A stretch of DNA of 64,000 bases. Origin: Akkermansia muciniphila (GTDB lineage Bacteria > Verrucomicrobiota > Verrucomicrobiia > Verrucomicrobiales > Akkermansiaceae). Location of the stretch: assembly GCA_945890645.1 (NCBI GenBank), contig CAMDCV010000009.1:1-64000 (forward strand). Reading direction: 5' to 3'. This document shows, piece by piece, positions 3,514 through 27,112 of the stretch. The position numbers and the translations under genes were made by a program. Every line of letters starts with the position of its first letter. The stretch's first letter is position 1. A model generated the notes under the pieces. That model did not search any database, had not been told where the DNA came from, and saw only the letters and a program-made list of their open reading frames with translations.

Positions 3514-6366
3514 ATGAAGAAGTCGTTTCTACTTACTATTACTCTTTTCAACCTGCATTCCCCTGCGCAGGCAAAAATCGATTTTTCCCGTGACGTCCGC
3601 CCCATCCTTAACGCCCATTGCACCGCCTGCCACGGCGGCGTCAAGGAAGCGGGCGAAGTTTCCTTCATCTACCGCGACCGCGCCCTCGGCAAGGGCGAAT
3701 CAGGAAAATTCGTCATCGTCCCTGGCAACCCTGCCGCGTCGGAAATGATCGCCCGCATCACCACCAGCGATCCGGACGACATCATGCCGAAACCCGAACA
3801 CGGTCCGCCACTCCAAGAGAAGGAAATCGCCATTCTTCGCCAATGGATCACCGAAGGCGCTGAGTGGGGGGAACATTGGTCCTTCGTCCCACCCGCCAAT
3901 CATCCGCTGCCTTCCGTTAAAAATACCTACTGGTCGGTTCAACCACTCGACCACTTCATTCTCGCTCGTCTCGAAGAAAAAAATCTCACGCCCTCCCCCG
4001 CCGCCAGCCCTGCTGCATGGCTGCGCCGCGCCTCCTTCGATCTCATTGGTCTGCCGCCTACGATTGAGGAACTCGATGCCTTTGAAAAAGCCGCCGCCAT
4101 CGATTTCAAAACCGCTATCGAAAAAGAAACCACCCGCCTTCTCGACTCCGCACGTTTCGGCGAGCGCTGGGCTTCTGTGTGGATGGATCTCGCTCGCTAC
4201 GCCGACTCCGCTGGCTACGCCGACGACAGCCGCCGCGAAGTCTGGAAATACCGCGACTGGCTCATCGATGCCTTCAATCGCGACCTACCCTTCGATCAAT
4301 TCACCATCGAACAAATCGCCGGCGATCTCATCCCCAATGCCACACTTGATCAACAAATCGCCACCACTTTCAGTCGCCTCTCCCAAGTGAACAGCGAGGG
4401 CGGCACCGACGACGAAGAATTCCGCGTCGTCGCCGTCATGGACCGCATGAATACCGCTTGGGAAGCGTGGATGGGTGTCAGTTTCGGCTGTGTGCAATGT
4501 CACTCGCACCCCTACGACCCGATCCGCCACGAGGAATTTTACGATTTCATGGAGTTCTTCAATCAATCCGCCGATGCCGATCTCATCGAAGATTTCCCTA
4601 AGCTCAGCGTCCCACTCGACAAGTCCCGATATCCCGAAGCCAACGCACTCAACAAACAAATTCACGACGCACAAAAATCTCTCTTCGCCACGCGCTCGCA
4701 GATCGACTCCGCCTCCACATGGCATCAGCCAAAGGCCATGACTGCCACAGCGAAAAAGGCCCTCCTCACAATCAGCGAAGAAAACGGAATTGCCGAGTTC
4801 CGTGCTGACCCGAACGTCGCTGCTGGTGCCGAATACATGCTGAATTTCGGTACCGATCTCAGTACCGTGACCGCCCTGCGTTTGCAACTTCTCCCGCTCG
4901 ATATCGAAAAAGCCAAGCACACACCCGAGTGGGGCGGCATCATTCGCAAAATTGTATTAGAGACCATCGCGCCCGATGGCAAAGCCACCGCCATCCCTTT
5001 ATTCGAAGGCATTGCCGATGAAGCCCACCCAATGTTCGACCCGAGTCTCTCGATCAAAGGAGCCGACCGCGCCTGGGGCACCTACTCAAAAATTCACACC
5101 CCACGACACGCCACCTTCGTCCTCACCGAGCCACTCACACTCGCCCCCGGCACCCAACTCCGCGTCACACTCCACAATGGTTTCATCTACGGCGCCAGCT
5201 ACCCGATGGTCGCCAAACGCGGACGCATCAGCCTCACCGATCAACCGCTGTGGATCACCCATCGCCAACTACCAGAAGTGACCACAGCGAAGCAACAAAT
5301 CGAGGACGCCCGTCAAAAACTCAAAGCCATCCCCTCCGTAGCCACGCCGACCATGGTCCAGCTCGATCCTTTCGTCCCCCGCGCCACCCACAAGTTTGAG
5401 CGCGGCAACTGGCTCGACAAAGGAGTGTTTATCAAAGAAGCCAACACGCCCAAACTTTTCCCGCCATTGAAAAAATCTGGCGACCGCGCCACCCGCCTCG
5501 ACCTCGCCCGCTGGGTTGCCGCCCCAGAAAATCCACTCACCGCTCGCGTCGCCGTGAATCGCCTGTGGCTCGAACTTTTCGGCACCGGCATCGTCCCGAC
5601 ACCCGAAGACTTCGGCTCAGCTGGTGAACCGCCAACTCATCCGGAATTGTTAGATCACCTCGCCCTTCGTTTCGTGAACGACAAAAAATGGAGCATCAAG
5701 GCCATGCTGCGCGAACTCGTCACCAGCGCCACTTACCGCCAAGATGCCACCATCCCCGAAGCCCTCGCCGAGAGTGATTCCGGCAATCGACTCCTCGCCC
5801 GCGGCCCACGCCAACGTCTCACCGCAGAGATGATGCGCGACCACTCGCTTACCGTCTCCGGCCTCATCAGTCATCAAATCGGCGGCATGCCCGTCCATCC
5901 CCCACTGCCACCCGGCGTCTGGAAACCCTTCACCCGCGATGACTGGAAAACACCCCCACCCGGCAACCCCGAGCGCTATCGCCGCGCCGTTTATATCTAT
6001 TTCAAACGCAGCCTACTCTATCCGCTTTTCAGTTCCTTCGATGTCCCCGCACGCGATCTTTCCTCCAAGCGACGCCTCGTTTCAAACACCCCGTTGCAAG
6101 CGCTCACCACCCTCAACGATGCCGCCTTCCAAGAAGCCGCCGAAGCCCTTGCCCAGCGCATGAGCACCGCCGCGCCAAACGATCTGAATGCCGCCATCGC
6201 CTACGGCTATCGCCTTACGACATCACGCCCCATCACCCCCGACCGCGCCACCGAGCTACACGCCCTCCACCAACGACTACTCACCGAATACCAGTCCGAT
6301 CCCAAAGCCGCCCTCACCGTCATCGCCTCCGTCCTCATCAACCTCGACGAAGCCCTCACCCGGTAA
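3514..6366 (+). CDS. Planctomycete-type cytochrome protein, PSCyt1-DUF1549-DUF1553
   Basis: 950 residues with a signal peptide (about residues 1-20). A PSCyt1 domain follows with heme motif CTACH at 36-40 and MPKP later as a possible axial Met region. A DUF1549 (PSCyt2) domain with second motif CVQCH at 326-330 comes next. A middle jelly-roll-like region leads to the C-terminal DUF1553 (PSD1) domain (NRLWLELFGTGIVPTPEDFG and the LSSKRRLVSNTPLQAL region). This architecture is hugely expanded in Planctomycetota and Verrucomicrobiota and is nearly always followed by a DUF1501 gene, as here 12 bases downstream. Its chemistry is unproven; oxidative steps in glycan breakdown and electron transfer have been proposed. 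Confidence 0.92.
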   Translation: MKKSFLLTITLFNLHSPAQAKIDFSRDVRPILNAHCTACHGGVKEAGEVSFIYRDRALGKGESGKFVIVPGNPAASEMIARITTSDPDDIMPKPEHGPPLQEKEIAILRQWITEGAEWGEHWSFVPPANHPLPSVKNTYWSVQPLDHFILARLEEKNLTPSPAASPAAWLRRASFDLIGLPPTIEELDAFEKAAAIDFKTAIEKETTRLLDSARFGERWASVWMDLARYADSAGYADDSRREVWKYRDWLIDAFNRDLPFDQFTIEQIAGDLIPNATLDQQIATTFSRLSQVNSEGGTDDEEFRVVAVMDRMNTAWEAWMGVSFGCVQCHSHPYDPIRHEEFYDFMEFFNQSADADLIEDFPKLSVPLDKSRYPEANALNKQIHDAQKSLFATRSQIDSASTWHQPKAMTATAKKALLTISEENGIAEFRADPNVAAGAEYMLNFGTDLSTVTALRLQLLPLDIEKAKHTPEWGGIIRKIVLETIAPDGKATAIPLFEGIADEAHPMFDPSLSIKGADRAWGTYSKIHTPRHATFVLTEPLTLAPGTQLRVTLHNGFIYGASYPMVAKRGRISLTDQPLWITHRQLPEVTTAKQQIEDARQKLKAIPSVATPTMVQLDPFVPRATHKFERGNWLDKGVFIKEANTPKLFPPLKKSGDRATRLDLARWVAAPENPLTARVAVNRLWLELFGTGIVPTPEDFGSAGEPPTHPELLDHLALRFVNDKKWSIKAMLRELVTSATYRQDATIPEALAESDSGNRLLARGPRQRLTAEMMRDHSLTVSGLISHQIGGMPVHPPLPPGVWKPFTRDDWKTPPPGNPERYRRAVYIYFKRSLLYPLFSSFDVPARDLSSKRRLVSNTPLQALTTLNDAAFQEAAEALAQRMSTAAPNDLNAAIAYGYRLTTSRPITPDRATELHALHQRLLTEYQSDPKAALTVIASVLINLDEALTR

Positions 6367-24049: not shown

Positions 24050-25123
24050 TTACATTCTACTTTTGGCTGCTACCGCAATCGTGCCGCCGTAGACAAATTC
24101 GGCAGGTGTTAAGGTTTGACGCAGATCTTTTTTGCCTCGGCTAATATTCGAAGCCCATCGCAAGATGCGGCGGATCACTGGCCGACTGTCCCATCGTATA
24201 TGCGAGATGGGTGGATCACACCAATTGAGCGAAGGAGAATGATCCGTGCAAATCAACGACACATCCTCAGGAACACGAATACTTTTACGTGCCAAATATT
24301 GCAGTGTTCCTACCAATTGCGGGATTTCATCCACAATCAAGGCTGTCGGCGGAGAAGAAGCAAATAGTGAGTCCAAGCGAGCAAGGTAGCTACCAATCGA
24401 CTCATCCCAACTCGGCAAATTGTAGTCGCTCACGGGCAATTGATGCGCGGCCAGCTCCATGAGAAACGCTCGCTCTAACGCACCCGGGGTAGGAATCCGC
24501 CGTGGCGGACGCACCATCATCACGATGCGCTTATGACCCAACGCGATGAGCTTGCGTGTTACCTCAGCTAACACCGGGATTTTATCCGGCCCTGCAGCGG
24601 CAATCGGCAGACCTCTGCGTCTTCCAAACAGAGAAAATACTGGCAACGGTTGCTTGGAAAACCACTGCAAGACATCGCGCGATGCGGCAACCACTAACCA
24701 CGCATCAGCTTCCGTTTGGAGCACTAAGCGTTTGACCAGTTTCACATTCATGCCCATTTCATTGAGAAAGCGTGGCGCGTAAAATGCTTTGTGGCCCGCT
24801 TCATTGAGTGCGAACATGAGATTCATGACATAGTCAACTTTGCAATCATCCTCTTCGTTGGCCAATATGGCGATACGCAAATTCGTTGGCGCGCGACGAC
24901 TGGGCAAGATGATTTTTCTTTTCCGACCCGCTCCCTGCGCTATCAATAATCCGTCTTCCTCTAGCAAACACATGGCCGCATCAATCGTCTTGCGATCAAT
25001 ACCCAGCGCTGCCGAAAGTTGAGGTGAACCTGGCATCATACCTATCCATGTTTCACGAAGTAACTCCCCGCGCAAATAGTCCGCTACTTGCTGCGATGGC
25101 GACAAAATCGCAAAATCTGACAT
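24050..25123 (-). CDS. GntR-HTH / LacI-type sensor transcriptional regulator
   Basis: 357 residues. The first ~70 form a winged helix of GntR type (SPSQQVADYLRGELLRETW, then IDRKTIDAAMCLLEEDGLLI). The rest is a periplasmic-binding-protein-like sensor of the LacI/GalR kind with LRIAILANEEDD, LIALGHKRIVMMVRPPRR and VPEDVSLICTDHSP. This hybrid is common in Verrucomicrobiota and typically senses a sugar. The ATG at 25123 is used; the longer reading begins with TTG. Its position at the end of the sulfatase block and upstream of malQ makes local sugar-responsive control plausible but unproven. A paralogue lies at 57044. Confidence 0.82.
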   Translation of the reverse strand: MSDFAILSPSQQVADYLRGELLRETWIGMMPGSPQLSAALGIDRKTIDAAMCLLEEDGLLIAQGAGRKRKIILPSRRAPTNLRIAILANEEDDCKVDYVMNLMFALNEAGHKAFYAPRFLNEMGMNVKLVKRLVLQTEADAWLVVAASRDVLQWFSKQPLPVFSLFGRRRGLPIAAAGPDKIPVLAEVTRKLIALGHKRIVMMVRPPRRIPTPGALERAFLMELAAHQLPVSDYNLPSWDESIGSYLARLDSLFASSPPTALIVDEIPQLVGTLQYLARKSIRVPEDVSLICTDHSPSLNWCDPPISHIRWDSRPVIRRILRWASNISRGKKDLRQTLTPAEFVYGGTIAVAAKSRM

Positions 25124-25183
25124 GAATGGATCCTGCCCATTTTCGGACAAGTTACGAGAAAATAATAAATTGCTGCGATAAAG

Positions 25184-25297
25184 TACAATCGCTAAGGGTG
25201 GGCGCGTCTGAAAGATTCCCTACGGGGTTGGATCATGTCTTCGGGCATGGTTCGGGCGAGAAGCATTAAGGGGTTTTTGCTTCTCGCCCATTTTTTT
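25184..25297 (+). ncRNA. Candidate structured small RNA with its own promoter and terminator
   Basis: Between the regulator and malQ lies a TACAAT -10-like hexamer (25184-25189). About 100 bases follow that form hairpins around CCCTACGGGG and CATGTCTTCGGGCATG. They end in a strong intrinsic terminator: GGGCGAGAAGC at 25254-25264 pairs with GCTTCTCGCCC at 25279-25289, followed by seven Ts. The transcript would run from about 25196 to 25297. No protein frame is credible here and it does not match SRP, 6S or tmRNA signatures that I can recognise. A leader attenuator for malQ is the main alternative. Confidence 0.5.
25254..25297 (+). terminator. Intrinsic terminator upstream of malQ
   Basis: An 11-bp perfect GC-rich stem (25254-25264 with 25279-25289) has a 14-base loop and a T-run at 25291-25297. 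It lies 82 bases before the malQ ATG. It either ends a small RNA or works as an attenuator. Confidence 0.88.
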
Positions 25298-25378
25298 GCC
25301 GTAGCTCAACCTCATGAAGACGGCTCATGCCGAAATATCGCTTGCCACGGGCCAGCGTATGTTGAGAATTCCGGCCAC

Positions 25379-27112
25379 ATGAAATTGCGAAACCAACGCC
25401 GTGCCGGCGTTTTACTTCCCGCGTTTTCTCCCCGACGCAAAGACGATCTCGGTATCGGTGACACGCGAGCTCTCGAAGAATGGATTCGCTGGGCGGCCTC
25501 TCATCATGTGGGCTTTTTGCAATTGCTGCCGATCAATGAAACAGGCGCTGACAATAGCCCTTACAATGCGATTTCCTCCGTTGCCCTTGATCCCGTTTAT
25601 TTGACCATGGATCCGCAGCTCATTCCCGGGCTGCACGAGAGCGACAGCACAGCCGCGCGCGCATTCCTCGGCAAAGAGGTGCTGGAGGCTCGTCTCGTCG
25701 ATTATGCCAAAGTAGGTATTTGCAAACGCACTTTGCTCGAGACAGCCTATTCGCGATTTCTCGCAGGAGATTTCGCTGCGGAAAAACAGGAACTTCGAAT
25801 CTTCCAACAGGAAGAAGCCTCTTGGTTAAATGACTACAGTCTATTTCGTTGGTTGATGGAACAAGCGGGCGGGCGAGAACATTGGGATCACTGGCCGAAG
25901 GCGTTTCACACACCAGCGTTAGCTCGCGAGTATTTTCATGCAGAGCGCCGCAAACGGGGAGACCTAGTCGTGCGAGAGCAGACGTATTTCTCATGGGTAC
26001 AGTGGCTCTGTTTCCGCCAATGGCGAGCCGTCAGAGCCCTCGCCGATCAACTCGGCGTCCAACTTATGGGCGATGTCCCCATCGGCATTTCTTACCATTC
26101 AGCTGATGTTTTTTTTCAGCCCGAACAGTTTGACCTCGAATGGTTCGGCGGCGCACCTGCAGAGACGATGTTCAAGCACGACCTTTTCATCCAACGCTGG
26201 GGACAGAACTGGGGCGTGCCACTTTATCGCTGGGACACCATGGAGGAAAACGGTTACACATGGTGGAAACAGCGCATCGGCAAACTAACGGAAATTTTTA
26301 ACATCTTCCGCATCGATCACATCCTCGGCTTCTATCGCATTTACGCCTTCCCCTGGCGACCCGAACGCAATCCGGAAATGATCGACCTCTCACCCGATGA
26401 AGCGAAACAACGCACTGGGGGACGCCTTCCCCAATGGGCCTGGCGCGATGACAACACGGAAGAAAACCGCAGAGCGAATCGCGACGATGGCGACCGCCGA
26501 TTGCGAGCGATCATCGCCGCCGCGGGTGACAGTGAAGTCGTGGGCGAGGACCTCGGCTGCGTTCCCGAATATGTGAGACCCCATCTTGAATCACTTGGCA
26601 TTGCCGGCTTCCGCATTCCTCATTGGGATTCTGATGACGGCCACGTAGTCAATGGAACTCGCTATCCGGAGTGTTCTTTCGCCACTTACGCCACGCACGA
26701 TCATGATACTCTCGCCTCGTTGTGGGAATCGTTTCGTTTGAATGCCATCGGTGCCACCTGCACCGCTGATGAGCAAGCAGGAGGACAATGGAATATCCGT
26801 ATGATGGCGGAATTCGGGGACATGGACATCGATATCGAAAACCCACCAGTGTACAATCACGATGTACAGTGGAAATTGTTAGACGCGCTGCTGGCCTGCC
26901 GTTCTCGTTATGCCGCTCTGATGATCACTGATCTCTTTGGCATGATCGATCGCTACAACATGCCTGGCACTGTAGGTGCAGAAAACTGGAGCTTCCGCCT
27001 TCCCTTCACACTCGAAGAAATGCTCGCAGATCCAGATAAACAAAAAGAACTGCAACAACTCGAAGCATCCATCAAACGCCATCGCCCACTGGATTCAGTG
27101 TCATCGCAATGA
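25379..27112 (+). CDS. malQ: 4-alpha-glucanotransferase (amylomaltase, GH77)
   Basis: 577 residues, usual for short-form MalQ. Signature segments are NETGADNSPYNAISSVALDP near the start, FRIDHILGFYRIYAFPW with the nucleophilic Asp, VVGEDLGCVP with the acid/base Glu, YATHDHDTLASLW with the transition-state Asp, and GTVGAENWSFRLP at the end. It transfers maltooligosaccharide chains in glycogen/maltodextrin metabolism in the cytoplasm. The ATG at 25379 fits the family start (MKLRNQRRAGVLLPAF). The frame continues upstream to 25235, but that part runs through the small-RNA/terminator hairpin and is not coding. Confidence 0.95.
   Translation: MKLRNQRRAGVLLPAFSPRRKDDLGIGDTRALEEWIRWAASHHVGFLQLLPINETGADNSPYNAISSVALDPVYLTMDPQLIPGLHESDSTAARAFLGKEVLEARLVDYAKVGICKRTLLETAYSRFLAGDFAAEKQELRIFQQEEASWLNDYSLFRWLMEQAGGREHWDHWPKAFHTPALAREYFHAERRKRGDLVVREQTYFSWVQWLCFRQWRAVRALADQLGVQLMGDVPIGISYHSADVFFQPEQFDLEWFGGAPAETMFKHDLFIQRWGQNWGVPLYRWDTMEENGYTWWKQRIGKLTEIFNIFRIDHILGFYRIYAFPWRPERNPEMIDLSPDEAKQRTGGRLPQWAWRDDNTEENRRANRDDGDRRLRAIIAAAGDSEVVGEDLGCVPEYVRPHLESLGIAGFRIPHWDSDDGHVVNGTRYPECSFATYATHDHDTLASLWESFRLNAIGATCTADEQAGGQWNIRMMAEFGDMDIDIENPPVYNHDVQWKLLDALLACRSRYAALMITDLFGMIDRYNMPGTVGAENWSFRLPFTLEEMLADPDKQKELQQLEASIKRHRPLDSVSSQ

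Follow-up and report, generated by a model that had tools for sequence, protein, structure and literature searches.

The window analysed here, a 64,000-nucleotide stretch of DNA from Akkermansia muciniphila, carries a compact run of hairpins and a strong terminator between a regulator gene and malQ. Two explanations had been proposed from the sequence, a stand-alone small RNA and a sugar-controlled leader of malQ. The question raised by the locus is which of these the hairpins represent, and to which neighbour, if any, they belong.

Layout and folding of the element

The succession first described, a -10-like box followed by compact hairpins and a terminator, is present as TACAAT, the hairpins P1, P2 and P3, and a tract of seven U residues (Table 1). 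P3 and the U7 tract together form a rho-independent terminator of the element's own on the + strand; on the opposite strand no U-tract follows the hairpin. A simple terminator scan missed P3 because it permits loops of at most 8 nt and the P3 loop has 12.

Table 1. Coordinates of the element and its neighbours in the window, and of the candidate RNA of family f9
Feature	Position	Strand	Basis or remark
Regulator gene, GntR-type DNA-binding domain and Peripla_BP_3 sugar sensor	24050..25123	-	Pfam; divergent from the RNA
Operator-like palindrome AACTTGTCC-N6-GGGCAGGAT (minus strand)	25130..25153		Aligned sites in orthologues
-10-like box TACAAT	25184-25189	+	5/6 matches to TATAAT; weak, score at chance level
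Presumed RNA start	~25196 (alternative ~25183)	+	Guess from the weak -10-like box
Hairpin run P1-P2-P3 and U-tract	25216-25297	+	Sequence and fold
P1, short UACG-loop hairpin, here CCC-UACG-GGG	25216-25229	+	Centroid fold only; relatives, 83% of cells paired
P2, hairpin of 10 bp with UUCG loop	25230-25253	+	100% of cells paired; two-sided changes at 4/10 pairs
P3, terminator hairpin of 12 bp with 12-nt loop	25254-25289	+	100% of cells paired; two-sided changes at 3/12 pairs
P3 loop UUAAGGGGUUUU	25266-25277	+	Identical in 4/5 copies; single U-to-C change in G001
U7 tract, presumed transcript end	25291-25297	+	Sequence
malQ, 4-alpha-glucanotransferase, GH77	25379..27112	+	Neighbour of the window copy only
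Candidate RNA of family f9, ~100 nt	L161:~3935-4070, L162, L163:~3905-4015, L164, L195-L211 minus L197 and L205		Genera g68, g85, g348

The region 25184-25300 folds with a predicted energy of -47.5 kcal/mol, compared with -34.0 ± 3.3 kcal/mol for 200 dinucleotide shuffles (z -4.06), none of which folds as well, and z lies between -4.1 and -5.2 across all five copies of the element described below. Both P2 and P3 appear in the minimum-energy and the centroid folds of the window. The minimum-energy fold has no P1, GUGGG being paired with CCCUAC instead, which counts against a small RNA of this architecture; P1 is weak in the window and therefore rests mainly on the relatives, in which it reaches up to 6 pairs.

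The best sigma70-like score upstream of the window RNA is 10.0 (median of shuffled sequences 9.5, 95% level 11.3), the -10 box having no good -35 partner, and at all five copies the promoter scores fall below the 95% level of shuffles. The best sigma54 sites at the genus copies score 7-9 of 13, the same as shuffles. Over 1.1 kb upstream there is no credible + strand gene, only short open reading frames opposite the regulator gene, and the RNA is therefore not the 3'UTR of such a gene.

The initial annotation saw no credible gene over the element itself, and comparison bears this out. An open reading frame of 625 residues that begins at 25235 extends malQ upstream in frame, and the relatives of malQ align from residues 3-6 of the protein starting at 25379. 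Since the malQ frame is open through the RNA at 25235-25378, automatic gene calling could carry malQ back over the RNA gene. A leader peptide or small protein was considered and rejected: among three frames compared, no start codon and frame are common to the five copies. All five copies have an open frame running to a TAA within the P3 loop, with starts at -18, -20, -50 and -69 and none in copy G009a; a second frame has a start near +20 in four of the five (missing in copy G009b) and stops one codon further on in G003. The peptide-like ending GEKH, GGKH or GEKY that recurs before the TAA does so because P3 is conserved as DNA.

Relatives and covariation

In a BLAST search of 57 genomes, including that of the window, three further genus members matched strongly (E 4e-24 to 2e-12): G003, G001 and G009, the last with two copies. 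The alignments of these four homologues fall within the limits of the RNA. Matches with E up to 1 were found in 33 of the 57 genomes, but those beyond the strong ones are short; the matches at G000 C16, G002 C90 and G009 C20 were inspected and are other than the RNA. The element is thereby represented by five copies in four of 10 genus genomes, the six genomes without it including two that are only 82% and 88% complete.

In an alignment of the five copies (A3; 28 pairs, 140 pair cells), standard pairs occupy 96.4% of the cells, compared with 43-58% when the partners are slid. Two-sided changes occur at 9 of the 28 pairs, a number matched by 4 of 500 column shuffles. The P2 loop varies from copy to copy (UUCG in the window, and UUAG, CUCG, UCCG and GAAA). 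Because the structure was derived from the same five sequences, three of them from one orthologous site, this small alignment is good but not final evidence. Given homologues in 4 of 10 genus genomes and the two-sided changes, we conclude that the element very probably encodes a structured RNA; the compensatory changes among homologues from four genus members likewise support the stand-alone small RNA that was first proposed.

A covariance model, R1, built from the five copies scores them at 87-100 bits and everything else at 28.7 bits or less. It matched 16 of 195 genomes of the family at E ≤ 0.1, four of them strongly. Among 386 genomes of the order it gave seven matches at E ≤ 0.01 with the same four strong, and among 387 genomes of the phylum 11 at E ≤ 0.01, the two strong ones being the known carriers G000 and G001; the larger searches applied stricter filters, by which weak members may be lost. 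Weak matches in other genera (~20-29 bits) were dropped from the family count, and the weak matches inspected (11 and 8) are mostly other hairpins, several of them with GGGCGRGAAGC-like stems. A pattern search for P3 matched 18 records, four of which are the known copies (L057, L061, L067 and L074). The other 14 were set aside, with R1 scores of at most 20.4 bits, and three of them, from Firestonebacteria, are one conserved stretch that is coding in appearance.

Homologues with conserved structure exist within the genus, but in Rfam 15 no covariance model matches the window element at gathering score, the three matches reported having E values up to 5 and the best of them 16.4 bits against a cut-off of 55.8. 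Among the papers listed by literature searches none is on this RNA, which is not proof that none exists. The element very probably represents a narrow and new family of small RNAs, of a kind already familiar.

In a small and partly model-selected sample, related genomes repeatedly show terminator stems that are GGGCGRGAAGC-like, and G009 has a second copy of the element. Both would suit a lineage-typical terminator or insulator, or a small mobile palindrome, that has no function as an RNA. Such an element would not account for the conserved and covarying P2 upstream of the terminator (P1 is less clear), and the DNA ahead of it offers no credible gene to terminate. Hairpins with similar stems are mostly short-looped, moreover, whereas here a loop of 12 nt is identical in four of five copies. 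Mobility is not apparent either, as the P3 pattern has no match in viral contigs, 25180-25310 has none in phage and plasmid records, and no genome holds more than two copies. We therefore consider a terminator or palindrome of this kind unlikely.

Neighbouring genes: malQ and the divergent regulator

The short distance between terminator and malQ noted in the initial annotation is 81 nt, with P3 on the same strand as the gene, and in the best fold of the window GUGGG can compete with P1. On these grounds P3 could serve as a sugar-controlled attenuator in the leader of malQ, stopping transcription unless a signal allows read-through. Comparison with the relatives speaks strongly against this. 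malQ has one match in each of the 10 genus genomes, and in all nine others it stands without the RNA in the fetched flanks of ~1.5 kb; only the window copy has malQ beside it, and no conserved structure precedes malQ in the relatives. The gene that follows the RNA differs from copy to copy, being a 3-keto-disaccharide hydrolase gene in G003 and at G009 C10, a very long open reading frame at G009 C33 and a gene on the opposite strand in G001. Nor was a conserved alternative pairing that disrupts P3 seen by eye in the five copies. The malQ attenuator is rejected on synteny, and we hold it to be highly improbable.

A further reading is a more general cis-acting leader, an orphan element of riboswitch type serving any gene placed after it. 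A + strand gene does follow in four of the five copies, twice that for 3-keto-disaccharide hydrolase. The spacing, however, ranges from ~49 to 220 nt, the genes differ, the gene after the G001 copy faces the other way, and the most conserved stretch of the element is the terminator loop itself. A leader of this general type is very unlikely. Judged by its conservation and surroundings, the element is probably a stand-alone non-coding small RNA of ~100-115 nt, divergent from the sugar-type regulator gene and ending at its own terminator P3.

The adjoining sugar-type regulator, also remarked on at the outset, proves to be the recurring partner of the RNA. Its product matches Peripla_BP_3 (4.1e-23) and, below the cut-off of 27 bits, GntR (0.00071, 19.6 bits); in the orthologues from G009 and G001 the GntR domain is above the cut-off. 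Comparison with orthologues places its likely start at the ATG at 25123. At three orthologous sites, in the window, at G009 C10 and at G001 C6, the same GntR/Peripla_BP_3 regulator (57-60% identical to that of the window) adjoins the RNA divergently and lies beside sulfatase genes. At G009 C33 a different Peripla_BP_3 sensor, of AraC/XylR type, is divergent at 195 nt from the RNA. The exception is G003, in which the closest divergent regulator is of HxlR type and 724 nt away, which counts against linkage. An adjacent divergent regulator is thus found for the window copy and three of the four others; these represent three independent sites overall, with a sugar-type sensor gene directly divergent at two. 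Conversely, among 30 regulator loci scanned the RNA occurs at the three orthologous ones only, and G004 has the regulator orthologue and the palindrome but not the RNA. This pattern of gene order ties the RNA to the neighbouring regulator, not to malQ, by a link that is not obligatory.

The operator-like palindrome lies 6 nt before the regulator start codon, with its centre ~55 nt before the presumed RNA start. Its consensus, AACNTRNCC-N6-GGGYAGGWT, holds for the window, G009 and G001 and also for the site before the G004 orthologue. These sites themselves supplied the search patterns, so their recovery is by construction. Further sites within one mismatch number 0 in the window genome, 1 in G001, 3 in G004 and 4 in G009, compared with 0-1 per genome for a backward control, and the additional sites in the last three genomes may mark a small regulon. 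The position of the palindrome offers a place for putative autoregulation of the regulator, and control of the RNA by the same protein is plausible. The regulator would then control both itself and the RNA through this palindrome, and the RNA would be made in response to a sugar or glycan signal.

SgrR is a sugar-stress regulator, and SgrS, GcvB and OxyS terminate at intrinsic terminators. Many enterobacterial small RNAs are described as divergent from their own adjacent regulators, among them SgrS-SgrR, OxyS-OxyR and GcvB-GcvA (PMC4423775). The window RNA resembles these in being intergenic and divergent from an adjacent regulator gene. It differs in having no Rfam match and, Hfq not having been found in the genus genomes, is unlikely to be an Hfq-dependent pairing RNA; the likeness is one of gene arrangement, the targets and regulation of the window RNA being putative. 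A second parallel is Bns1 of Neisseria, which the same source places divergent from an operon encoding regulators of the DeoR and GntR families, an association it reports to be conserved among neisserial genomes (PMC4423775). Like the window RNA, Bns1 is a small RNA divergent from a GntR-family carbon regulator; it belongs to a different phylum and is likened by gene arrangement, not by sequence.

The PVC group comprises Planctomycetes, Verrucomicrobia and Chlamydiae. A 2022 review gives 8 annotated distinct small RNAs for this whole group, compared with 345 for Proteobacteria (PMC9029176). A probable structured RNA beside a sugar-type regulator, in genomes with no detected Hfq, offers a concrete test case for RNA-based control in this part of the tree, where annotated small RNAs are very few.

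The P3 loop and a second candidate RNA in another order

None of the 10 genus genomes has a match to the Pfam profile for Hfq; in a control set of known genomes, the same search detects Hfq in 5 of 14, E. coli and B. subtilis among them. Action with the usual help of Hfq is therefore unlikely, and any action of the RNA would be Hfq-independent. With less certainty, we suggest that the RNA might act in trans by way of the P3 loop UUAAGGGGUUUU, which would pair with C-rich mRNA sites or bind a protein.

As a target seed the loop complement AAACCCCTTAA was rejected, since it has one non-self match in four genomes, compared with 12 for the backward control, and this one falls in an open stretch of 577 codons. 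A scan of the window for the complement at two mismatches gave matches at chance level. Also set aside was a candidate pseudoknot in which CCCU of P1 would pair with AGGG of the P3 loop. The genus copies would allow it on paper, but no such partner was seen by eye in the RNA of another order described below.

A class-wide search for the loop in 384 genomes gave 23 matches with G or C six bases either side; the backward control pattern is commoner, so the 12-mer itself is not enriched. Full flanking stems of 6 bp occur at four of the 23 (one with a G-U pair), namely in the window and in three genomes of f9, a family in another order. A looser loop pattern gave 76 matches in 252 f9 genomes, of which 23, in 21 genomes, have five pairs flanking a loop of 12 or 13 nt; a single hairpin, from the genera g68, g348 and g85, accounts for 18 of the 23. 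We read 19 copies of this hairpin (15 of 17 stretches and four more, L197 and L205 being set aside as unlike); of the 22 genomes listed for the three genera, 19 have it, each in a single copy. The exact UUAAGGGGUUUU loop is found in 16 of the 19 copies, a constancy that is partly by construction because the f9 search was seeded with most of the loop.

In all 19 copies a sigma54-like site of the TTGGCAC...TGCT type lies 67-88 nt ahead of the loop. These sites score 9-13 of 13 against a consensus taken partly from the same copies; shuffled 200-mers from the window (n=500) mostly score 7-8, with 9 in 40 cases and 10 or more in 8. Ten aligned g68 and g348 copies share a conserved upstream hairpin, with two-sided changes at 7 of 28 RNAalifold pairs, and Rfam gave no gathering-score match in seven f9 loci. 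The candidate f9 RNA resembles that of the window in carrying UUAAGGGGUUUU on its last hairpin, with another hairpin just upstream, in its length of ~100 nt and in its single copy per genome read. It differs in its sigma54-like promoter, its other stems, the lack of a visible P1 and the frequent lack of a clear U-tract, and its best R1 score is 28.7 bits against 87-100 for the five genus copies, so that homology is not established.

One explanation of the shared loop is that at least two different small RNAs of the Verrucomicrobiae employ UUAAGGGGUUUU as a module for recognition, with a common conserved partner that could be a protein or an mRNA site; the other is chance. A common partner can be put forward only tentatively, the more so because the f9 search was seeded by the loop. 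Were it correct, two RNAs would address one partner, in the window's genus without Hfq. That this loop also caps a candidate RNA preceded by a sigma54-like promoter is the one unusual lead to come from the locus and is worth a specialist's time, and the loop could be used as bait in a search for the partner.

The loop might, alternatively, serve an RNA-binding protein as landing site or decoy, and not act as an mRNA-pairing seed. It is kept while the stems change, it recurs in a candidate RNA of another order that differs in other respects, and its complements are few in the genomes, all of which would fit a protein ligand. RNA decoys, however, usually bear several protein sites, whereas there is one per RNA here; a protein-binding role of this kind seems rather unlikely.

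Three further features were observed. In L163 and L164 the candidate f9 RNA is flanked by metH and by the gene of a LysR-type regulator. In most copies among L161, L162 and the g68 and g348 members of L195-L211 the last two hairpins are preceded by GGGGUUACAUGGAUG, which is close to the CsrA-binding consensus RUACARGGAUGU. In another genus, g16 (L048, L049 and L053), a long hairpin with a loop containing GGGUUUUUGC recurs at least in all three g16 genomes read.
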